Origin: an uncultured Prevotellaceae bacterium
Lineage (GTDB): Bacteria; Bacteroidota; Bacteroidia; Bacteroidales; Bacteroidaceae
Direction: 5' to 3'
Assembly (NCBI GenBank): GCA_900318115.1
Contig: ONJJ01000051.1
Location: forward strand, 1-36,815
Length of the DNA stretch: 36,815 nucleotides
Of this stretch, positions 11,841 to 21,978 are shown in pieces. A model generated the notes under the pieces. That model saw only the letters and a program-made list of their open reading frames with translations, was not told the DNA's origin and searched no databases. The position numbers and the translations under genes are program-made. Every line of letters begins with the position of its first letter. Within the stretch, counting starts at the first letter, position 1.

Positions 11841-12824
11841 CTACAGTTTCACTTCCTCCAGATTAATGAGCCCGTTGACAATCGCATAGATGGTCAGTCC
11901 CGCCGGCGAGTGGATTTGTGTCTTGCGTGCGATGTTGCGCCGGTGGGTCATGACGGTGTTGGCGGAGATAAACATCTTCTCTGCGATCTCCTTGTTGGAG
12001 AGTCCCCGGACAACCATCCTGACGACTTCCTTCTCGCGTTCCGATAGTTCATCGGAATTGGGCGCATCGACAGCCTTGCCCTTCGGGCGCTCATCCATGG
12101 GCTGCGAGCCGTCCTCGGCGCGCGCACTCACCTCCAGCTCCAGCAGATGCACCGCCTCGGCAAAGAGGGTGTCCTCGAGATGACAATGGCTGAAGAGGTC
12201 TTCCTCCATGATGTATATATCCATCAGGGTGTCTGCCAGCCGCTGGGTGTCAGAATCGCTGGGATAGTATTTGATGATGATGGACTTCAGCTCGTGGCTG
12301 CTGTCGCTGATGCTGCTGTGGTTGTCGTGGTGCTTGGCTGCCAGGACCCGGTAAGTGGATCCGCGCTGGGGCAGGTGGCCGTCGAGTAGTTGCTGGACGT
12401 AGCTGTGGATATGCTCGTTCTCATAGTCCATGTGACGCTGCACGGCTGCAGCGTACTCATCGTAGAACTTGAGGATGAGGAATGCCAATTGGTTCTTGGC
12501 CGAACAGTTGATGGCCTCGATGAGCTTCCTGCGGATGGCTGGCAGACGGAAGTCCACGAAGTACGTGTGGGAACGGCGCAGATAGCGCATCAGCTCTTCC
12601 ACACTGACTTGTTTTGCCAGTTCGCTGACAGAGAGGCGACCCTCGCTCTGGATGAAATTGACCACGGTCAGGAAGGTCATCGTATCGACGCCGCTGGCCT
12701 TGCAGGCGGCATCGACGCTCAGGTCGCCGAAACCCAGCGAGACGCCGAAGCGCGAGATGACTTGCAGCAGCCGGTAGTCATCGTGAATGAGGTCGCTCAT
12801 GTGAGCCGATTCCGTAAAATGCAT
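11841..12824 (-). CDS. hemerythrin-like domain fused to LuxR-type helix-turn-helix regulator
   Basis: 327 residues. The N-terminal 70 residues ([19 protein letters not shown], then ACKASGVD) resemble the short helical domain found in front of ScdA/YtfE-like iron-cluster repair proteins. Residues about 85-230 are helical with spaced His and acidic residues ([30 protein letters not shown]), as expected of a hemerythrin-type di-iron bundle. The last 65 residues are a LuxR/GerE helix-turn-helix ([26 protein letters not shown], then [13 protein letters not shown]). Inference: a one-component regulator that senses oxygen, nitric oxide or iron through a di-iron site. A second ATG at 12800 is an alternative start. 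The gene lies upstream of ruvB and faces away from the lipoprotein/porin pair and iron cluster to its right. Confidence 0.82.
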
Positions 12825-12926: not shown

Positions 12927-13343
12927 TTAATTGATGGCGGTGGAATAGAACACCTTGTCGTCGCGCTTCACCACGAGCTTGGCCTTGGCCTTCAGTTTCT
13001 TGCAGGACTCGCTGGCATTGACCTTGGTGAGTGTGATGGCTGCGCCAATCTCAGACTTCATGTCCTCGTCACTCTTGCCGCGTTCGCGCGTGAAGCTCTT
13101 CGTGGAAGCCGTGGCCTTGTAGCCCAGCTGGTTCAGCTGGGTGGCGAAAGCCTGGTCGATAGCCTGGGTGGCTGTCTGATAGACGTTGAGGTCTTGAGCG
13201 CTGGATTCGATGTAGTCTTCGTAGGCCCAGGTGAAAGTGTAAGGGCCTGTGGGTTCGGGTTCGTCATCACTGCCGCAAGAGGCTACTGCGAAAGGCAAGG
13301 CAATGACCATCATTGCTGCCAGAATTTTCCATAGATTTTTCAT
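12927..13343 (-). CDS. small lipoprotein, unknown function
   Basis: 138 residues from the ATG at 13343; the longer open frame upstream runs through the promoter and is not likely to be translated. It has a lipoprotein signal peptide with lipobox VASC and the mature end CGSDDEPEP, acidic as in Bacteroidetes surface-export signals. The rest is a small alpha/beta-looking domain without recognisable motifs (YTFTWAYEDYIESS to KVFYSTAIN). I do not recognise the family. It is divergent from the porin gene at 13622, with which it shares a 278-base regulatory interval, and it has its own clear promoter. Confidence 0.8.
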   Translation of the reverse strand: MKNLWKILAAMMVIALPFAVASCGSDDEPEPTGPYTFTWAYEDYIESSAQDLNVYQTATQAIDQAFATQLNQLGYKATASTKSFTRERGKSDEDMKSEIGAAITLTKVNASESCKKLKAKAKLVVKRDDKVFYSTAIN

Positions 13344-13388: not shown

Positions 13389-13420
13389 CAAAGGTAGCGA
13401 TAAATTCAATGTGAACCAAA
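13389..13420 (-). promoter_or_regulatory. promoter of the small lipoprotein gene
   Basis: On the minus strand TTTG at 13420-13417, a 20-base spacer and TACCTTTG at 13396-13389 are an excellent match to the Bacteroidetes -33/-7 consensus. The predicted transcript starts about 40 bases before the ATG. Confidence 0.75.
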
Positions 13421-13567
13421 GAAAAGGCGGACAAAATCTGCAAAAAGGATTGAAAATACACAGAAAAAGGCCTCCTCTACCTAAAAATAATGACTTACCC
13501 GATGGTCCTTGCCCGTATTGACCTGCTTCAGGCGGTCATTATTTGTGAGTATTTTGCAGGCTGCCTC

Positions 13568-13598
13568 TTGCACGCCTCGTTCATTTATCCTACTTTTG
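13568..13598 (+). promoter_or_regulatory. promoter of the first porin gene
   Basis: TTG at 13568-13570, a 20-base spacer and TACTTTTG at 13591-13598 match the Bacteroidetes consensus. The leader would be about 17 bases, which supports the ATG at 13622 over the upstream in-frame codons. Confidence 0.7.
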
Positions 13599-13621
13599 CA
13601 GCCGCAAAACAAAAACTGCGT

Positions 13622-14935
13622 ATGAAAACGACATTGAACATACTGGCATTTGCCACATTCATGACTTTTGGAACTGCCACCTTCGCCCAGGCTCAGGATG
13701 GCAGCGAGAGCTTTGAGAAATTCCGCGTCGGCGGCTACGGCGAGATGGTGGCTTCCTTCATGGGCTACGGCACCAGCCGCTTCAACGGCACCACGACGGG
13801 CAACACCTACGAGCGCCGCAACGCCATCGCCATCCCCCGCTTTGTGCTGGCCGGTGACTATAAGTTCAACAAGCACTGGCAGATAGGTGCCGAGATCGAG
13901 TTCGAGGCCGGCGGCGTAGGTGTCGAGACCGAGATGGAGCAATCCGAGAACGGCGAGTACGAGACCGAAATGGAGAAGGGCGGCGAGGTCGCCCTGGAGC
14001 AGTTCCACGTCACCTACACACTGAACCGCTACTTTCACGTACGGGCAGGTCACATGGTGCTGCCGGTGGGTCTGACCAACGCACACCACGAGCCCATCCT
14101 CTTCTTCGGCACCGTGCGTCCGGAGGGCGAGACGGTGGTGATTCCTTCGACCTGGCACGAGACGGGTCTGTCCGTCTTCGGCAAGTTCGGGCAGGGCTAT
14201 GGCCGCATGAGCTACGAAGCCTACGTCACCGCCGGACTGAACGCCGATGGCTTCGGTCGCGACCACTGGGTGGCCGATGGCAAGCAGGGGCTGTTCGAGA
14301 CGGATAACTTCACCAGCCCCGCCTACACCGCCCGTCTGGACTACGAAGGCGTGAAGGGGCTGCGCGTAGGGGCCTCGGTCTACTACTGCAACGATGCCGC
14401 CGCCAACGCCGACAAGGCCTATAAATATTCCAAGGTGGGCCGCGTGCCCGTGACCATCCTCTCCGCCGATGCACAGTACGTGAATCGCTACGTCACCGCC
14501 CGTGCCAACGTTCTCTGGGGACAGGTGGGCAACTCCAAGAAGCTGAGCAGCGTCTCGCTGTCCAACCTCTCGAACTACCACCACGGCGCCATGCGACGCA
14601 CCGCCAAGAACGCCCTCGCCTACGGCGCTGAGGTGGGTCTGAACCTGCGAAACGTCATCGGCAACAACCGCGTGCCCGTCTTCTACCCCTTTGTCCGCTA
14701 TGAATACTACAACCCGCAGCAACGCGGCGAAGACGACCAGGCCATCGAAGCACGCTGCCAGGTGAGCAAGTGGGTGGGCGGACTGAACTGGTTTGCACTC
14801 CCCAACCTCGTAGTCAAGGCGGACTGGAGCACACGCAAGATTGGTACCGCCAAGGTCTTCGGCAGCAGCCGCTACCACCGCGAGAACGAATTCTCCATCG
14901 GAGTGGCCTACGCCGGCTGGTTCTGGAAGAAATGA
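13622..14935 (+). CDS. outer-membrane porin-like beta-barrel protein
   Basis: 437 residues from the ATG at 13622; codons upstream in the same frame overlap the promoter. It has a signal peptide (MKTTLNILAFATFMTFGTATFAQAQ). The body has alternating aromatic/polar strands with a repeated pattern of glycine and tyrosine, e.g. FRVGGYGEMVASF at the mature start and FSIGVAYAGWFWKK at the end, as in OprO/OprP-like or general Bacteroidetes porins. There is an acidic loop (TEMEQSENGEYETEMEKGGE, about residues 101-121). Family knowledge: trimeric channel for anions or other small solutes; the substrate is not apparent. It precedes the iron/haem module by 380 bases, across a MITE-like element, so it is probably a separate unit. 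Confidence 0.8.
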   Translation: MKTTLNILAFATFMTFGTATFAQAQDGSESFEKFRVGGYGEMVASFMGYGTSRFNGTTTGNTYERRNAIAIPRFVLAGDYKFNKHWQIGAEIEFEAGGVGVETEMEQSENGEYETEMEKGGEVALEQFHVTYTLNRYFHVRAGHMVLPVGLTNAHHEPILFFGTVRPEGETVVIPSTWHETGLSVFGKFGQGYGRMSYEAYVTAGLNADGFGRDHWVADGKQGLFETDNFTSPAYTARLDYEGVKGLRVGASVYYCNDAAANADKAYKYSKVGRVPVTILSADAQYVNRYVTARANVLWGQVGNSKKLSSVSLSNLSNYHHGAMRRTAKNALAYGAEVGLNLRNVIGNNRVPVFYPFVRYEYYNPQQRGEDDQAIEARCQVSKWVGGLNWFALPNLVVKADWSTRKIGTAKVFGSSRYHRENEFSIGVAYAGWFWKK

Positions 14936-14960
14936 CTTCCTGAAAGAATAAGAGAAAAGA

Positions 14961-15232
14961 GTATAACTCAACTTTCGGAAGTTTATTAGAACAACGAATT
15001 AGACTAATTAAACGAATTATTCATGGCCTATGGATTTACGATTTATACCGAATTTCACGAATTATCGAGCGAAACCGCTGCGCGATGTTTCGAATGGAAT
15101 CCAAAACAAGATGACACTCGACACCTGCGTAGCGTGTCGCGAATTTATAAATTGAGAGTTGTCAGGAGGAAAGACATCCGTTTAATTAGTCTAATTAGTT
15201 GTTTTTAAGAACATCCGAAACTTGAAGTATAA
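14961..15232. mobile_element. MITE-like element with long terminal inverted repeats
   Basis: A 25-bp inverted repeat (14990-15014 and 15179-15203) matches at 24 of 25 positions. The pairing continues outward with more mismatches to about 14961 and 15232, so each terminal repeat is about 54 bp. The 160-base core has no credible gene; the 61-codon open frame at 15023 spans one repeat and looks accidental. No transposase is encoded. These are features of a non-autonomous miniature element, but a target-site duplication was not identified. It occupies most of the gene-free stretch 14936-15315. Confidence 0.6.
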
Positions 15233-15237
15233 TAGAA

Positions 15238-15288
15238 TTAAAGAGTAAATAGAGTTAAAGAGTAAATAGAGTTAAAGAGTTAAGTAAG
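15238..15288. repeat. 17-bp tandem repeat upstream of the imelysin gene
   Basis: Two perfect 17-bp units TTAAAGAGTAAATAGAG (15238-15254 and 15255-15271) are followed by a partial third unit. This AT-rich array ends about 30 bases before the imelysin start, in what should be its leader. No TAnnTTTG promoter was found nearby. Confidence 0.75.
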
Positions 15289-15315
15289 AGTAAGTCTAAC
15301 AAAAAAATCAATCGA

Positions 15316-16500
15316 ATGAAAAAGTATTTTTTCTTGGCAGCAATGCTGCTTGTCGGCGCCATGGGCTTCGTAGCCTGCAGCGACGACGACAATGAGAAAG
15401 AAGGTGAAGAGGATGAGGTTCAGTCCGCACTCGTCTGTGTGGAACAGATCATCGACGGCTGCATGGACATCGCCAACGAGGTCGGCAACGCCAAAATCGG
15501 CGACCCCTACGACCTCTATCACCATGGTCAGGTGGAGCAAGCCCTCTACGCTGTGGAGTCCTGGTACAGCTGGCACAGCATCGACGACTACACCAACAAC
15601 ATCCGCAGTATCCGCAATGCTTACTACGGTACCCGCGACGGCAAGGTAGCCTCGAGCTCTCTGGCCACCCTGATTTCCGGCGCCAACGCCACCTTGGATC
15701 AGGACGTGCGCAATTCCATTCAGCGCGCCATCGATGCCATCCAGGCCATCCCCGCTCCCTTCCGCAACAATATCGGGGCTCCCGAGGTATCCACCGCCAT
15801 GGATGTCTGCAACGAGCTGGAAGAGGTGCTCGGAAACCTGAAGGGATACATCCAGCGCAACGAGGCCGTCAACGCCGACGCCGTGCTGCAGCCCATCCTC
15901 AACAACTATGTGAATAACGTAGTCCTGCCCACATACTCCGACCTGCTGAAAGCCAACACCTCCCTCTATCAGACAGCCCAGGCTTTCCAGAAGGACCCCA
16001 GCAACGCGGCCTTCGAAGCTTGCTGCGAGGCGTGGTTCAGCGCCCGTGCGCCCTGGGAGACCAGCGAGGCTTTCCTCTTCGGACCCGTGGATGCACTGGG
16101 ACTGGACCCCAATATGGACAGCTGGCCTCTGGACCAGGAAGCCATTGCAAATATCCTCAACTCCGGCAAGTTCGACCAGCTCACCTGGAGCGACGGCGAC
16201 AGCGACGATGACATCGAAGCCGTGCAGAGCGTACGCGGATTCCACACCATGGAGTTCCTCATCTTCAAGGATGGCAAGGCCCGCACCCTCAACGACGGCA
16301 ACAGCACCGATTTCGCAGACCTCGACTACACCAGTTCCAACGCCACCAGCTGGGGGAACTATATGGTGCAGGTGGGCTACCTCCTACAGAAGGATGCACA
16401 GGAACTCTACGACTCCTGGACCAAGAGCTATGAGGGCGGCAAGGCCTACAAAGACCTCTTCCTCAGCCACGAAATCGAAACGGGCGACGACGAAGAATAA
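15316..16500 (+). CDS. imelysin-family (M75) iron-regulated lipoprotein
   Basis: 394 residues. It has a lipoprotein signal with lipobox FVAC, and the mature end CSDDDNEKEGEE fits the S-(D/E)3 surface-export signal known from Bacteroides. The helical body contains the imelysin GxHxxE motif as GFHTMEF at about residue 310, plus a conserved SEAFLFGPVDALGLDP stretch and GNYMVQVGYLL. Family knowledge: imelysin/M75 proteins (IrpA, EfeO, Algp7) bind metal and are linked to iron uptake; peptidase activity is doubtful. It is the first gene of a same-strand run with the DUF1111 di-haem protein, a porin and a haem lipoprotein. No ferrous permease (EfeU/FTR1) is present in the window. Confidence 0.9.
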   Translation: MKKYFFLAAMLLVGAMGFVACSDDDNEKEGEEDEVQSALVCVEQIIDGCMDIANEVGNAKIGDPYDLYHHGQVEQALYAVESWYSWHSIDDYTNNIRSIRNAYYGTRDGKVASSSLATLISGANATLDQDVRNSIQRAIDAIQAIPAPFRNNIGAPEVSTAMDVCNELEEVLGNLKGYIQRNEAVNADAVLQPILNNYVNNVVLPTYSDLLKANTSLYQTAQAFQKDPSNAAFEACCEAWFSARAPWETSEAFLFGPVDALGLDPNMDSWPLDQEAIANILNSGKFDQLTWSDGDSDDDIEAVQSVRGFHTMEFLIFKDGKARTLNDGNSTDFADLDYTSSNATSWGNYMVQVGYLLQKDAQELYDSWTKSYEGGKAYKDLFLSHEIETGDDEE

Positions 16501-16512
16501 GAACTGAAAGCT

Positions 16513-16550
16513 GGAGGAGCAGGCAGTACACTCTTGCCTGCTGCTCCTCC
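16513..16550 (+). terminator. strong hairpin between imelysin and DUF1111 genes
   Basis: GGAGGAGC-AGGCA pairs with TGCCTG-CTGCTCCTCC across a 9-base loop with a 3-base bulge. No T-run follows directly, so it may attenuate transcription or protect the upstream message rather than terminate it. A smaller AAGGCC/GGCCTT hairpin follows at about 16578-16598. Confidence 0.45.
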
Positions 16551-16651
16551 TTACCACTGCTCACGCTGCAAGAAGTGAAGGCCCCCAAAATGGCCTTTGC
16601 TTCTTTGGCGTCTAAAAAAAAAACGGATTGATATCCAATTCCTAAAAAACG

Positions 16652-18094
16652 ATGAATAACTCCTTACAGAAGCTCCTGTTGATGGCTGCCATAACCCTCT
16701 CATTGGCAGCCTGCAGCGATGATGAAGACGGCCTGACCGAGGCCGACCTGACGCCGCCGAAAGGCTATGCCCTCTCGGCCGGCACGTCAACGATTTTCTC
16801 CACCTCCTCTTTCGCCTACGACAGCGAGGCGGAATGGGTGACGGGTGCGCTGAAGAAACGATTCACCCGCGGCGACAAACTCTACGACGACGCCCGCACC
16901 AGCTCCAACGGCTACGGCGGTGGACTGGGTCCCGTCTATGCCGGCTACAGCTGCGGCGGCTGCCATCGCAATGCCGGGCGCACGAAGCCTGCCCTCTGGG
17001 AGGACGCCGAGGGCAGCGGAGCCTATGGTTTCTCGGCCATGCTCTGCTACGTCACCCGCAAGAATGGCGTCTTCTTCCAAGACTATGGCCGCGTGATCCA
17101 CGACCAGGCCATCTATGGCGTTCAACCCGAAGGCAAAGTCCACGTAAAGAAACACTACGAGACCTTCCAGTTCCCCGACGGCGAGACCTACGAACTTTGC
17201 TATCCCGAATACAGCATCACCGACTGGTATGCAGACAGCATACGACCCGAGGACCTCTTCTGCTCCGTGCGGATTCCCCTGAGACACGTGGGTATGGGAC
17301 AGATCATGGCCCTGGACCAAAATGAAATCGAGGCCCTCGGACGCAAGAGCAACTACCCCGAGTGGGGCATCAGCGGACGCTGCAACTACATCACCGAGCG
17401 AGGTCAGCGCCGCCTGGGCGTCGGTGGCAACAAGGCGCAGCACGCCGACCTGACCGTAGAACTGGGCTTCAGCAGCGATATGGGAGTCACCAACAGCCGC
17501 TACCCCGAGGAAATCTGCGAAGGACAGCTCCAGATGCAGGAAGGCTCGATGATGGGACTACTCTACGACCAGCTGGAAATCAGCACCGAGGATATGGAGG
17601 ATGTGGACCTTTACCTCCACGCTCTCGGCGTTCCAGCCCGCCGCAACGTCAACAACTCCACCGTCAAGCGGGGCGAGCAGCTCTTCTACGAAGCCGGATG
17701 CCACCTCTGCCACGTCACCACACTGCACACCCGCACCCGCGGCGCCAACCTACTCAACGGCACGCAGCTACCCTGGCTGGGCGGCCAGACCATACACCCC
17801 TACTCCGACTTCCTGCTCCACGATATGGGGTCGGAAATCATGGGCGTGGGCCTCAACGACAACTACGTCAGCGGCCTGGCTCGAGGCAACGAGTGGCGCA
17901 CGACTCCCCTCTGGGGCATCGGCCTGCAGGAGAAGGTGAACGGACACACCTATTTCCTTCACGACGGACGCGCACGCAACTTCACCGAGGCCATCATGTG
18001 GCACGGCGGTGAGGGCGAAGCCTCGCGACAGAAGTTCGCCCACATGAGCAGCGACGACCGCAAGGCACTCATCCGGTTCCTCCAGTCGCTGTAG
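16652..18094 (+). CDS. DUF1111 di-haem c-type cytochrome (thiol oxidoreductase-like) lipoprotein
   Basis: 480 residues. Lipoprotein signal with lipobox LAAC and the mature end CSDDEDG, again S-(D/E) rich. Two haem-binding CxxCH motifs are seen: CGGCH at about residues 107-111 and CHLCH at about 351-355, spaced as in DUF1111 proteins, which are distant relatives of MauG/CcpA di-haem peroxidases. Conserved-looking loops include YGFSAMLCYVTRK and FLHDGRARNFTEAIMWHGGEGE near the C-terminus. Family knowledge: DUF1111 genes commonly neighbour imelysin genes; a role in redox handling of iron or haem has been proposed but the reaction is not established. Maturation needs a cytochrome c haem lyase; a fragment resembling one (CcsBA) lies further downstream. 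Confidence 0.9.
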   Translation: MNNSLQKLLLMAAITLSLAACSDDEDGLTEADLTPPKGYALSAGTSTIFSTSSFAYDSEAEWVTGALKKRFTRGDKLYDDARTSSNGYGGGLGPVYAGYSCGGCHRNAGRTKPALWEDAEGSGAYGFSAMLCYVTRKNGVFFQDYGRVIHDQAIYGVQPEGKVHVKKHYETFQFPDGETYELCYPEYSITDWYADSIRPEDLFCSVRIPLRHVGMGQIMALDQNEIEALGRKSNYPEWGISGRCNYITERGQRRLGVGGNKAQHADLTVELGFSSDMGVTNSRYPEEICEGQLQMQEGSMMGLLYDQLEISTEDMEDVDLYLHALGVPARRNVNNSTVKRGEQLFYEAGCHLCHVTTLHTRTRGANLLNGTQLPWLGGQTIHPYSDFLLHDMGSEIMGVGLNDNYVSGLARGNEWRTTPLWGIGLQEKVNGHTYFLHDGRARNFTEAIMWHGGEGEASRQKFAHMSSDDRKALIRFLQSL

Positions 18095-18156
18095 TCCTAT
18101 CTGCGGTCATATTTCCATTCCTCCCGACAAAAAAATCAAAAACATCATAAAGCATC

Positions 18157-19410
18157 ATGAAGAAACTTTTTTTTGCTGCCGCCCTCGTGGCCTTTGCCCT
18201 CCCGCTTGCGGCAGAAGAAATCGAGAAACCCGTCGAGGCCGCTGACGAACAGCACCTTGATATGCAGAACGGCGTGGTCCCCATCGCCGACAACCGCGGA
18301 TTCACCCTCCAGAGCAAGGACGGCCGCTTCGTCTTCAAGCCCTACCTCATGCTCCAGACCAGCGGCAACTTCAACTGGTACGACAGCGAGGGACTGGACA
18401 AAGCCTACAACCAGGACAACGTGGCCAACAGCGGTTTCGCCATCCCCAATGCCATCCTGGGCTTCACGGGACGTGCCTTCGGCAAGATTGACTACAACCT
18501 CTGCATCAACGCTGCAGCCAGCGGGGCTGCCATCCTCCAGCAAGCCTGGATAGACTATGGCATCAACCAGTACGCCCACTTCCGCGTAGGTAAGTTCAAG
18601 ACGCCTTTCTCCCACGCCTACCTGACCACCCTGGGCGAGACGCTGATGCCCTCGCTGCCCAATTCCCTGACGCAGCAGGTACTGCTCCCCTACTCGCTGA
18701 ACGCCGTCACCCCCGCCTTCGCCACGGGCTTCGACCTCGGCGTGGAATTCCATGGCATCACGAAATCCAACATCGGATACGAGGTGGGGATATTCAACGG
18801 TACGGGCATCAATGTCAACCTGGCCAACAAGACCCTCTCCGACGACCTGCACATCCCCTCGCTCCTCTACGCCGGACGCCTCACCTACCAGCCCTTCGGG
18901 GCCATGCCCTCTTCGCAAGGCAACCCCAAGCTGCTGAAGGAGAAGAAGATGCTCTTCGGCCTCTCGGCCAACTACAACGTAGAGAGCGAGAACGAGTCCA
19001 CCAATGACTTCCGCCTCGGAGCCGAATTCGCTATGCTCTGGAAACGGCTCTACGTCGCCGGCGAATTCTATTTCATGAACGTCGATTTCACCAAGCGACA
19101 GAAAATCAGTGACAACTACCACTACCTCGGCGCTTACATCCAAGCTGGCTACTTCGTCACCCGCAACCTCCAGCCCACCATCCGCTACGACCTCTTCGAC
19201 CGCAACGGCGTGGGCGGCACCGGCACCGACGGCCTGCTCAACGCTCCCGCCATCGGACTGAACTACTTCATCCCCAGCTGCAACCTGAAACTTTCGGGTA
19301 TGTATGAATTCGTAGGTCGCTGGGGCCACGCCCGCCAGCTCGATCGCGACATCGACGACCTCGGAATCGCCACGCACAAGGCTGTCGTCATGCTGCAGTA
19401 CTCTTTTTAA
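18157..19410 (+). CDS. outer-membrane porin-like protein of the imelysin cluster
   Basis: 417 residues, with a signal peptide (MKKLFFAAALVAFALPLAAEE) and a beta-barrel pattern (FVFKPYLMLQTSGNFNWY, FRVGKFKTPFSHAY, then strands ending VVMLQYSF with the terminal Phe typical of barrel proteins). The FRVGKFKTPF segment is characteristic of OprP/phosphate-selective porin-like sequences. Family knowledge: passive channel. It lies 62 bases after the DUF1111 gene and 48 bases before the haem lipoprotein, on the same strand. The context suggests that it passes the substrate handled by the redox lipoproteins, which is inference. Confidence 0.85.
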   Translation: MKKLFFAAALVAFALPLAAEEIEKPVEAADEQHLDMQNGVVPIADNRGFTLQSKDGRFVFKPYLMLQTSGNFNWYDSEGLDKAYNQDNVANSGFAIPNAILGFTGRAFGKIDYNLCINAAASGAAILQQAWIDYGINQYAHFRVGKFKTPFSHAYLTTLGETLMPSLPNSLTQQVLLPYSLNAVTPAFATGFDLGVEFHGITKSNIGYEVGIFNGTGINVNLANKTLSDDLHIPSLLYAGRLTYQPFGAMPSSQGNPKLLKEKKMLFGLSANYNVESENESTNDFRLGAEFAMLWKRLYVAGEFYFMNVDFTKRQKISDNYHYLGAYIQAGYFVTRNLQPTIRYDLFDRNGVGGTGTDGLLNAPAIGLNYFIPSCNLKLSGMYEFVGRWGHARQLDRDIDDLGIATHKAVVMLQYSF

Positions 19411-19458
19411 CCGCCTGAGGGCTTGACTTTCTGTTAATAAATCAAAAAAGAGTACGAA

Positions 19459-20172
19459 ATGAAGAATAGAAGCCTTATCTTTGCAGCGATTTTCGGGGCA
19501 TTAGGCCTTGCGGCGTGCGACGAAGGCGACATCCAGGAGCAGGTCACGGACGTGCAGACTTCTGGCAAGGTAGCCCAACTCACCGCCCACATCAGCGGCC
19601 TCAGCACCTGGAGCTCGCAGTACAGCGTGGTACTCGCTGCCTTTGCCGAAGGCAATGATTATGCCGTATCGCAGAAGCTGCTGCCCGAAGGAGCCGACGG
19701 CGATGTGACGGCCACCCTGAATCTCACCAGCGACGACGTCTCCACCGTGGAACTCTGTGTGACCAATCGTCTGCGACAGCGCGTGGTCAGCTTCGCCAGC
19801 GCCACCATCAGCCAGCTGCAGGGCGACACCCTCCTGCTGGCAGCCGGCGACCTGAACCTCAGTATGTTCCAGTCCATTCAGGACCTGGTGTTCACGGGCA
19901 CCTGCGCCCGCTGCCACGGACTCGGCAACTCGCCCGCCGGAGGGCTCACCCTGGCTGCCGGAGAGAGCTATGCCGCATTGGTCGGACAGGAGTCATCCCA
20001 CCCCGAGCGCGGGGTGCGCGTGGTGCCGGGCAACGCCCCCGTCAGCCTCCTCCACAAGGTCATCCACGGCAACCCCGACGCCGGCGTCAGCTTCGACCAT
20101 TCCAATATGATTAAGGAATCTCGCTCCATCACCCTCATCGACAACTGGATCAACGCAGGAGCAAATCAGTAA
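19459..20172 (+). CDS. c-type cytochrome lipoprotein with one CxxCH site
   Basis: 237 residues. Lipobox LAAC with the mature end CDEGDIQEQ. Residues about 25-135 form an Ig-like or beta-rich domain (VAQLTAHISGLSTWSSQYSVVLAAF, then VELCVTNRLRQRVVSFA). The C-terminal 85 residues are a small cytochrome c-like domain with CARCH (about residues 152-156) and a later region (NMIKESRSITLIDNWINAGA) that resembles planctomycete-type cytochrome c ends, where a Met such as that in SNMIKE may be the second axial ligand. Inference: an electron-transfer partner of the di-haem DUF1111 protein encoded two genes upstream. It is the last exported redox gene of the run; the next gene is cytoplasmic. Confidence 0.82.
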   Translation: MKNRSLIFAAIFGALGLAACDEGDIQEQVTDVQTSGKVAQLTAHISGLSTWSSQYSVVLAAFAEGNDYAVSQKLLPEGADGDVTATLNLTSDDVSTVELCVTNRLRQRVVSFASATISQLQGDTLLLAAGDLNLSMFQSIQDLVFTGTCARCHGLGNSPAGGLTLAAGESYAALVGQESSHPERGVRVVPGNAPVSLLHKVIHGNPDAGVSFDHSNMIKESRSITLIDNWINAGANQ

Positions 20173-20196: not shown

Positions 20197-21336
20197 GTGA
20201 CTTACGAAAAAATAACATACCAAGACCTCGGCGTCACCGTGGAGCTCGCGACCTTCGCCCCCAAAGGCAAGGTCAAGGAACAGCACGCCATCCTCCACGT
20301 GGCACCGCAGGGCGAACTCTTCGCCCAGCAGTTCGAGCGCATCTACGAAGCCGAAAAAGTGCTGCTGCAGATGCCGCAGTGCATTGGTTCGCAGACCATT
20401 TTCAAGCGTTATTTCCTCAGCGACGCCACCAACCAGCAGCCCCTCGTGCACGCCGACGGCGACTGCTCAGTCAGCTGTATTGAGCAAGCACCCCTGGACG
20501 GTTCCAAGGTGGCTGCCTGGCTCTACCTCGTCCACGATATGGCGGTAGAGAACCACGACGGACTCGTCATCGCACGCCACAACGGCTACCAGCACATCTG
20601 GAAGATGGGGATGCACGAGCACAGCGGCGACAGCGCCTGCCAGACGGAGAACCTCCTGACCGCCTACGAGGAGCTGCTCCAGCGATTCGGAGCCACACTC
20701 GCCGACAACTGCATCCGCACCTGGTTCTATGTCCGCGACGTCGATACACAGTACGCCGGAATGGTGAGAGCACGACGCGAGAACTTCGTCGCACAGGGGC
20801 TCACACCCGAAACCCACTACATCAGCTCCACTGGCATCGGAGGACTGCCCGCAGACACCCGGGCACTGGTGCAGCTCGGCACCTACGCCCTCGTGGGCTT
20901 CGAACCCACGCAGCAGCGCTACCTCTACGCCAAGACCCACCTGAACCCCACCTACGAGTACGGAGTCACCTTCGAACGCGGAACGGCCGTGGACTTCGGC
21001 GATCGGCGGCACGTCTATATCAGCGGAACTGCCAGCATCAACAACAAGGGCGAGGTCATGTACGTGGGCGACATCGTACGCCAGACCCACCGCATGTGGG
21101 AGAACGTAGAAGCCCTGCTGGCTGAGGCCGGAACCACCTTCGACGACGTGGCACAGATCATTGTCTATCTCCGCGACATCAGTGACTACGCCATCGTCAG
21201 CGAGCTCTTCAGCCAGCGCTTCCCCGACACACCCTACGTCATCACCCACGCTCCCGTCTGCCGACCCACCTGGCTCATCGAGATGGAGTGCGTGGCCATC
21301 AAGGAACAGAAGAACGAGGAATTCAGGGACTTCTGA
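20197..21336 (+). CDS. Rid/YjgF-family protein, two-domain form
   Basis: 379 residues from a GTG at 20197; no in-frame ATG occurs near the conserved start. The second half has a RidA-like domain: ISGTASINNKGEVMYVGDIVRQTHRMWENV, then VYLRDISDYAIV with the conserved Arg, and PVCRPTWLIEMECVAI at the end. The first half resembles the N-terminal region of chorismatase-like (FkbO/Hyg5) Rid relatives. Family knowledge: RidA enzymes hydrolyse reactive imines/enamines from PLP enzymes; the two-domain group is less well characterised. No signal peptide, so it is cytoplasmic. It follows the haem lipoprotein by 24 bases, so co-transcription is likely, though a functional tie to the iron cluster is not obvious. 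Confidence 0.85.
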   Translation: MTYEKITYQDLGVTVELATFAPKGKVKEQHAILHVAPQGELFAQQFERIYEAEKVLLQMPQCIGSQTIFKRYFLSDATNQQPLVHADGDCSVSCIEQAPLDGSKVAAWLYLVHDMAVENHDGLVIARHNGYQHIWKMGMHEHSGDSACQTENLLTAYEELLQRFGATLADNCIRTWFYVRDVDTQYAGMVRARRENFVAQGLTPETHYISSTGIGGLPADTRALVQLGTYALVGFEPTQQRYLYAKTHLNPTYEYGVTFERGTAVDFGDRRHVYISGTASINNKGEVMYVGDIVRQTHRMWENVEALLAEAGTTFDDVAQIIVYLRDISDYAIVSELFSQRFPDTPYVITHAPVCRPTWLIEMECVAIKEQKNEEFRDF

Positions 21337-21342
21337 TTTCGC

Positions 21343-21978
21343 ATGAAAAAAAGATTTGTGATTCTTTTTGCCAGTCTAATGGTATTCGCTTCCTCCCTGA
21401 CAGGGAGGGCGGGGGATGAGTCCATTCCATCCGTCTCCCGCGCCCACGCTGACATCCTCGCCACACGCCTCGTCCTGTGGAACGGCCGCATCTGCCCACT
21501 CAACACTCTGGCCACCGACTTCACACTGAAAGTCTGTGGCCAGCGACGTCCCTACGGCTACACCCCCGAGCAAGTCGTGGCCAGCTGGGCACTCTACCCC
21601 GAGACCTGGAACCGCGCACCCCTCATCCTCGTGGACAACGACGAGCTGCGCCGCCGGCTCGCACTCTCCGGCAAGCGAGCCTCCGTCGTGCAACTCTACG
21701 ACGGTCCCGCCTACCGTCTGCAGGCGCTCCTCGAGGCCGCTGCGCCCGACGACACCCGCCTGCAGCGCTCCATCACCGACGTCGATGAGCGCGTGCGCCT
21801 CGTGGCGGAACTCATAGCGGGAACACTCATCAAGCCTGCACCCGCCGATACGCCCCCCATCCCCGCCTGGCGCATGCAGCTGGAGCTATGGAACAACCGC
21901 TTCCCACTCTTCAACACCCTCTACGCCCTGCTGCTACTCGCAGCCATCGCAGGATTCATATACTACATCCGAAAATGA
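21343..21978 (+). CDS. exported protein resembling the periplasmic domain of a CcsBA cytochrome c synthase
   Basis: 211 residues: a signal peptide-like N-terminus (MKKRFVILFASLMVFASS), a soluble domain (DILATRLVLWNGRICPLNTLATDFTLKVCG onward), and a final membrane segment (LFNTLYALLLLAAIAGFIYYI). The WNGRICPLNTLATDF stretch and the segment that precedes the first CcsA helix look to me like the middle of the long fused ResB-CcsA haem lyase of Bacteroidales; this is from recollection, not a search. The ResB helices and the WWD-containing CcsA part are absent, so it is either a degenerate remnant or an independent accessory subunit. The region after the signal peptide is encoded by a GC-rich palindromic element (21388-21427). 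It overlaps the M16 peptidase start by four bases (ATGA). Confidence 0.6.
   Translation: MKKRFVILFASLMVFASSLTGRAGDESIPSVSRAHADILATRLVLWNGRICPLNTLATDFTLKVCGQRRPYGYTPEQVVASWALYPETWNRAPLILVDNDELRRRLALSGKRASVVQLYDGPAYRLQALLEAAAPDDTRLQRSITDVDERVRLVAELIAGTLIKPAPADTPPIPAWRMQLELWNNRFPLFNTLYALLLLAAIAGFIYYIRK
21388..21427. repeat. GC-rich palindromic element in the CcsBA-like gene
   Basis: CTCCCTGACAGGGAG is a small hairpin followed by GGCGGGGGATGAGTCC, matching the arms in the M16 peptidase gene apart from two or three bases. It encodes LTGRAGDES, which parallels LPLGRAGGES in the M16 protein, so both copies are read in the same frame. Confidence 0.65.

Follow-up and report, generated by a model that had tools for sequence, protein, structure and literature searches.

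Two described systems come closest to the gene cluster analyzed here. The first is the imelysin PIBO of Bacteroides ovatus (BACOVA_03801; PDB 3n8u and 3oyv), whose chain is circularly permuted and runs from the fourth helix of domain D1 through domain D2 to the rest of D1 (PMC3143127). The second is the B. thetaiotaomicron locus BT2473-BT2482, which is listed as encoding a fimbrillin, CcsA, a hypothetical protein, a porin, a thiol oxidoreductase, an M75 peptidase, a further hypothetical protein, and a helix-turn-helix (HTH) regulator; it is upregulated 62.7- to 323.7-fold in iron depletion according to the table of that study (69.4- to 323.7-fold according to its text) and is also up in a colitis data set, and in the available parts of this iron-stimulon literature we found no function assigned to it (PMC10434189). 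Here we compare with these systems a window of 36,815 nucleotides (contig ONJJ01000051.1, assembly GCA_900318115.1, from an uncultured Prevotellaceae bacterium). It contains a same-strand run of genes for an outer-membrane barrel (P1), an imelysin, a di-haem protein of the DHOR/DUF1111 family, a second barrel (P2), a one-haem lipoprotein (CYT), a RidA/chorismatase-like protein (LPSP), and what is left of a cytochrome c synthase. We find that the imelysin is a circular permutant distinct from the known B. ovatus one, and that the cluster most likely belongs to a known, iron-controlled cluster type of unassigned function, more complete than an initial annotation made from the sequence had it.

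The window imelysin is a lipoprotein that runs in the order signal peptide, D2, D1, fourth helix of D1, and the two halves of its Pfam match are swapped. Its chain begins and ends where D1 helix 4 would otherwise connect to D2, which leaves both bundles whole and consecutive. It has neither the canonical D1-D2 order, seen for instance in BDI_2603 of Parabacteroides distasonis (PDB 4ecg), nor the B. ovatus-type chain ends, which separate D1 helix 4 from the GxHxxE helix. Although the protein is 59% identical to PIBO over 290 columns and, like PIBO, is permuted, lipidated, and built of two four-helix bundles with a GxHxxE motif, it starts with D2 and carries D1 helix 4 last; we therefore rejected the single known permutation as its identity, this helix being at the opposite end. 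The two bundles are recovered by the predicted model and by structure matches, and the predicted fold and the active-site motif (GFHTME) are kept; a narrower form of the motif was searched in 119 imelysin open reading frames (ORFs) and is present in 113. That the swapped order is an artefact of assembly or gene calling is hardly credible: judging by record titles, every named carrier of this order is uncultured or metagenome-assembled, but the order occupies a single open frame in the window, recurs in 20 other sequences from different records at 66-86% identity to the window protein, and appears as the same Pfam split in 22 of the 103 genus genomes with an imelysin. A literature search for circular permutation together with imelysin, conducted largely outside subscription journals, matched PMC3143127 alone in the text available to it, and the main text of PMC9174327 makes no mention of permutation.

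It is the variety of imelysin arrangements in a single genus that would surprise a specialist, and the window arrangement is new. Our conservation set consists of 69 named loci fetched with the window imelysin as query, plus loci from further genomes. The named loci are nearly all from uncultured or metagenome-assembled Bacteroidales, many with titles naming the rumen, omasum, or reticulum; the apparent isolates among them are Parabacteroides massiliensis (L088) and Prevotella sp. (L093). For the imelysin tree we used 115 reordered rows, 109 of them distinct, leaving out L048, L133, and L134, which became short on reordering, L095, which covers half a gene, and the short copies numbered below L033. 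These rows comprise 52 imelysins of the B. ovatus type, 38 canonical, 21 of the window type, and 4 in which D1 helix 1 is C-terminal (helix-1-last). Across the genus we surveyed 139 genomes and read the arrangement from Pfam coordinates in the 103 with an imelysin: 22 are of the window type, 9 helix-1-last, and 3 canonical, while 3 are without the last D2 helix at the C-terminus and the remaining 66 are taken as B. ovatus type, a count by remainder for which match rows are listed in not all of the genomes (none for G059 and G356). The helix-1-last order was read directly in all nine loci. In an order-wide sample of 295 Bacteroidales genomes, 38 have an imelysin, 30 canonical and 7 of the B. 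ovatus type by Pfam coordinates, and the split at 162/166 occurs in the window's own genome only.

A fifth arrangement (E type; L133, L134, and L154), which would begin with the last D2 helix, is likely, on weak scores. A helix of similar pattern precedes D1 in these proteins, and a profile of the last D2 helix gives 3.5, 4.8, and 8.2 bits on their N-terminal stretch, values reached by 2, 1, and 0 of 300 shuffles. A looser first pass found no match to the last D2 helix in this N-terminal stretch. At the C-terminus the three proteins score 7.1, 4.1, and 4.8 bits, in matches confined to the first 8 profile positions, compared to 36-66 bits along the full helix in five canonical controls.

We next consider how these arrangements may have arisen. 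The window-type imelysins lie on one side of a branch in the imelysin tree (support 85, not starred) and are nested within the B. ovatus type, where L049 is closest to them (22-row set, 100*); a tree that keeps the window type out of the B. ovatus-type rows is rejected (approximately unbiased test, p-AU 0.0006). The helix-1-last (99*) and E-type (100*) imelysins each form one group among canonical rows, away from the other permutants, in a tree that included just three B. ovatus- or window-type rows. The spread of the canonical order, in 30 of 38 imelysin genomes order-wide, suggests that it is ancestral, an assumption made from this spread and not from a rooted tree. If so, the chain ends would have moved at least three times, and four times if the E type is real; we think four is probably the number.

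The neighbouring genes complicate this history. A single clade of window-type operons is rejected by the trees of P1, P2, and LPSP (p-AU 0.0025, 3e-13, and 0.01), which weighs against simple descent of the operon with its imelysin. The DHOR tree does not reject such a clade (p-AU 0.22) and places L049 in a starred set with 13 window-type rows. L049 has a B. ovatus-type imelysin, and its P1, DHOR, P2, and LPSP genes fall in starred sets with window-type operons. Given this grouping and the rejected clade, exchange of imelysin genes between operons, or a return in L049, has to be considered, and one or the other has probably occurred too. In a second example, L094 has the canonical order, and both its DHOR and its P2 fall, at 99* or more, with operons of the B. 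ovatus type. Its imelysin lies among B. ovatus-type rows, and a tree keeping it outside is not rejected (p-AU 0.669). A return of L094 to the canonical order is possible, as a single-genome case that the imelysin tree does not require. Taken together, we lean towards the view that one genus holds, at one place in an operon, five circular arrangements of imelysin that use five of the eight helix joints as chain ends, and that these ends shifted on four or more occasions, by one helix or one domain each time and once possibly back (L094), beside neighbours in constant order.

Conserved clustering in relatives, the check that the initial annotation had proposed for itself, is what we find. Neighbours were counted in 86 loci, and for each gene only those loci long enough on the needed side were taken as testable. 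DHOR lies downstream of the imelysin in 79 of 80 testable loci and P1 upstream in 79 of 80; P2 and CYT are each present in 66/77, LPSP in 61/72, and the synthase or its remnant in 42/58. One locus, L141, is without any of the neighbours tested. In the genus survey, imelysin and DHOR occur in the same 103 genomes and neither occurs in the other 36. The grouping is more than chance, as almost every relative examined repeats the order.

The cluster comes in two forms. The large form, P1-imelysin-DHOR-P2-CYT-LPSP, often followed by the synthase, accompanies almost every imelysin of the B. ovatus or the window type and, among the 10 testable canonical imelysins, 2 (L094 and L148). The small form, P1-imelysin-DHOR-synthase, has a DHOR about 26-36% identical to that of the window and accompanies the remaining canonical, the helix-1-last, and the E-type imelysins; at the E-type locus L154 an LPSP gene lies further on. 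At L135 and L138 (genomes G018 and G055) the small form, with a DHOR 33% identical, occupies the chromosomal site of the window's large form, a site that adjoins ruvB, a gene for a regulator with a hemerythrin-like domain and a LuxR-type HTH, and a small lipoprotein gene. The presence of a distant operon form between the same flanks points to the replacement of whole operon alleles. The hemerythrin-LuxR gene itself is not upheld as a specific partner of the cluster: it is found divergently within 6 kb in only 38 of 67 testable loci, and 60 of the 61 genus genomes sampled have a match to it, in some cases to the LuxR domain only, whether or not an imelysin is present. In Parabacteroides massiliensis (L088) the hemerythrin and LuxR parts are separate adjacent genes, present twice, beside tandem LPSP genes.

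The association of the window with iron, which the initial annotation had made, is well supported through the induction of BT2473-BT2482 by iron depletion. Compared by order and product names, not by sequence, that locus agrees with the synthase, CYT, P2, DHOR, imelysin, and P1 of the cluster; it differs in having CcsA genes, of which the window keeps only a remnant. By this analogy the window cluster is most likely the counterpart of BT2473-BT2482 and is probably switched on by iron hunger. Hemerythrin-domain regulators of the CdhR type are also named as iron-responsive in that source (PMC10434189). Since the B. thetaiotaomicron locus is part of the iron-stimulon literature, the earlier statement that a version with a porin and a haem lipoprotein is uncharacterized was too strong.

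The genes of the window cluster are given in Table 1. The four genes first noticed, for imelysin, DHOR, a porin, and a one-haem lipoprotein, are real and lie in a same-strand run with the haem motifs and lipoboxes described for them, the mature N-termini of the three lipoproteins being CSDDDNE (imelysin), CSDDEDG (DHOR), and CDEGDIQ (CYT). Missing from that gene list were P1, which lies within the stretch it covered, LPSP and the synthase remnant, with which the cluster runs on to 21978 past the end of that stretch, and the swapped Pfam halves of the imelysin. A gap of 380 bases separates P1 from the imelysin, so the barrel and the imelysin may not share one transcript. A strict Bacteroides promoter pattern (TTTG, 17-23 bases, TAnnTTTG) was not found before P1 or the imelysin. 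Between the regulator and P1, on the other strand, a small lipoprotein gene (12927-13343) encodes a mature protein starting CGSDDEPE; relatives that keep it at this place show 24-88% identity.

Table 1. Features of the imelysin-DHOR cluster and its divergent neighbour in the window.
Feature	Coordinates	Strand	Evidence
Divergent regulator, hemerythrin-like domain and LuxR-type HTH	11841..12824	-	GerE 67 bits; Hemerythrin 27.1 bits (cut-off 25.3)
P1, outer-membrane barrel, Porin_O_P-like, first cluster gene	13622..14935	+	PF07396 28.1 bits (cut-off 20.9)
Imelysin (M75/IrpA) lipoprotein, circularly permuted	15316..16500	+	PF09375 194.5 bits (cut-off 23.5)
Imelysin D2 (second half in canonical imelysins), here first	15418..15876	+	
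Imelysin D1 helices 1-3 and GxHxxE (GFHTME, 16237-16254)	15880..16293	+	inside PF09375 1-162 match
Imelysin D1 fourth helix, C-terminal	16294..16479	+	query 327-386 matches 3n8u chain 5-64
DHOR/DUF1111 di-haem lipoprotein	16652..18094	+	PF06537 205.5 bits (cut-off 22)
DHOR haem sites CGGCH and CHLCH	16952-16966; 17699-17713	+	
P2, Porin_O_P barrel, without lipobox	18157..19410	+	PF07396 153.9 bits (cut-off 20.9)
CYT, one-haem lipoprotein (CARCH, 19903-19917)	19459..20172	+	
LPSP, RidA/chorismatase-like	20197..21336	+	Ribonuc_L-PSP 65.8 bits
D5, 211 residues, remnant or cut-down CcsBA cytochrome c synthase	21343..21978	+	

The haem sites of the two cytochromes are conserved, with two CxxCH motifs in 100 of 101 DHOR ORFs and one in 68 of 69 CYT ORFs examined. 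CYT alone has no Pfam match over cut-off, but a match to Cytochrome_CBB3 at E<=0.01 occurs in 20 of the 54 members aligned. A model of CYT from the 54 aligned sequences (predicted local distance difference test, pLDDT, 93.3; predicted template modelling score, pTM, 0.86) shows seven strands at the N-terminus and, at the C-terminus, a helical part bearing the CxxCH; a Foldseek search with this fold gave no match at E<=0.001. The LPSP profile matches 5ag3 over positions 148-369 of 382 (E 2.3e-13) and FkbO (4bps) over 123-369 (E 1.5e-9), such that homology to the chorismatases Hyg5 and FkbO reaches beyond the RidA-like C-terminal part, leaving about the first 120 positions unmatched. Through LPSP, a chorismate-derived phenolic could serve as iron ligand or electron shuttle. 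The last gene, D5, is 41% identical to residues 216-321 of the ResB+CcsA protein of L045. Intact ResB+CcsA fusions are found in L045 and L094, and in relatives the synthase comes after LPSP. Of the synthase, D5 retains just the segment that lies between ResB and CcsA, with, by eye, a signal peptide of its own and one membrane helix. The nearest relative, L033, has a D5-like stretch split over two reading frames, and the window's own genome has a separate CcsA-like gene (C62:22074-22727). Genomes G014, G017, G028, and G051 have shortened CcsBA frames of 385-411 residues, without match in the middle part, from about residue 220 to 455-478.

The initial annotation placed a multi-haem electron chain and the imelysin on the outside of the cell. 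For the imelysin and DHOR this is plausible: their mature starts (CSDDDN and CSDDED) carry the acidic export motif after the lipidated cysteine and fit the B. fragilis surface export consensus SDDDD (PMC5080379) and the SusG export signal CS(D/E)2 (PMC6222051). Among proteins with a lipobox, two or more acidic residues lie within positions +2 to +6 in 72 of the 88 distinct imelysins, 59 of the 70 DHOR, and 45 of the 48 CYT, compared to 6 of 24 other ORFs, a small control; at least three are found in 41 imelysins, 30 DHOR, and 16 CYT versus 2 of the 24. In addition, the signal peptide of BT_2479, one of a set, sent active fused cargo to vesicles and supernatant (PMC13192842), and BT_2479 itself was detected in culture supernatant (PMC6282197). 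The CYT of the window, however, starts CDEGDI and is without the surface-export motif, and an electron chain wholly outside the cell is thus not supported.

Gene identity, conservation, co-occurrence, haem motifs, and the imelysin permutation were computed, and the strong iron control of BT2473-BT2482 and the secretory use of the BT_2479 signal peptide come from published work; we infer the surface position here, the direction of electron flow, the ligand, and the roles of the barrels. On an evenly balanced judgement, we propose that this is a Bacteroidales iron-starvation cluster for iron capture at the outer membrane and redox handling, with FeoB in place of EfeU. In this model, the imelysin, held by its lipid on the outer membrane and probably facing outwards, would bind iron or an iron complex; DHOR and CYT would pass electrons by which ferric iron is reduced or released; P1 and P2 may admit iron or a small ligand to the periplasm; and FeoB would carry ferrous iron inwards. 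A system II synthase would attach the haem; relatives encode it within the cluster, and here it is a remnant. FeoB is present in the window's own genome. No EfeU permease was found, in line with the initial annotation: in an assembly that is 87% complete, where an absence could be an assembly gap, the EfeU/FTR1 profile (PF03239), positive in 4 of 14 controls, has no match. Standing against the binding step, zinc, ferric ion, and haem binding by the B. ovatus imelysin were sought and not seen (PMC3143127), and the earlier description of the window imelysin as metal-binding is unsupported.

A tentative alternative, to which we give clearly less weight, is that the lipoproteins are held at the periplasmic side of the outer membrane, where DHOR, CYT, and imelysin would reduce iron entered through the porins and hand it to FeoB. 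Haem attachment takes place in the periplasm, and the lack of an export motif in CYT also fits this alternative. EfeO-type imelysins are, further, expected to be periplasmic (PMC3143127). The acidic starts of imelysin and DHOR and the secretion of and by BT_2479 described above argue against it. We consider it unlikely that the cluster is primarily a defence against peroxide or oxygen, in which DHOR would be a di-haem peroxidase, the imelysin would keep iron from Fenton chemistry, and iron control would be secondary; the Pfam text calls DHOR a putative peroxidase and a hemerythrin-domain regulator lies beside the cluster in part of the loci, but the strong induction in B. thetaiotaomicron is by iron depletion (PMC10434189), in a comparison that included no search for peroxide data on this locus. 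Finally, despite the M75 family name and the GxHxxE motif, we rejected a metallopeptidase role for the imelysin as very improbable, given that the B. ovatus structure argues against it (PMC3143127) and that a BT_2479 mutant kept the protease activity tested, on EspB (PMC6282197).

Returning to the preferred iron-capture reading, the cluster ties imelysin, whose family function is uncertain, to c-type cytochromes and barrels in gut and rumen anaerobes, and in relatives also to a cytochrome synthase of its own. Its likely counterpart is very strongly iron-repressed in B. thetaiotaomicron, which offers a tractable organism for finding the imelysin ligand. If true, the five arrangements are a natural permutation series under constant operon context: four to five chain-end variants beside constant partners allow permutation by duplication and trimming to be tested against cut and paste, and likewise allow tests of which loops of a two-bundle protein tolerate cutting. 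Among systems outside the Bacteroidales, Pseudomonas aeruginosa PA4370-PA4373 (ICMP, a DUF1111 protein, and a second imelysin) has imelysin and DUF1111 genes as neighbours, as in the window, and is Fur-regulated and without EfeU; the available part of that account mentions no barrels, one-haem lipoprotein, LPSP, or synthase (PMC3143127). The EfeUOB system differs in its EfeU permease, for which the window genome has no match, and in a cupredoxin domain, which the window imelysin lacks (Pfam, E<=1). The likeness to EfeUOB is the pairing of an imelysin domain (EfeO) with a haem peroxidase, EfeB, which is called DyP-type in one source (PMC3577903) and a DUF1111 member in another (PMC3143127).

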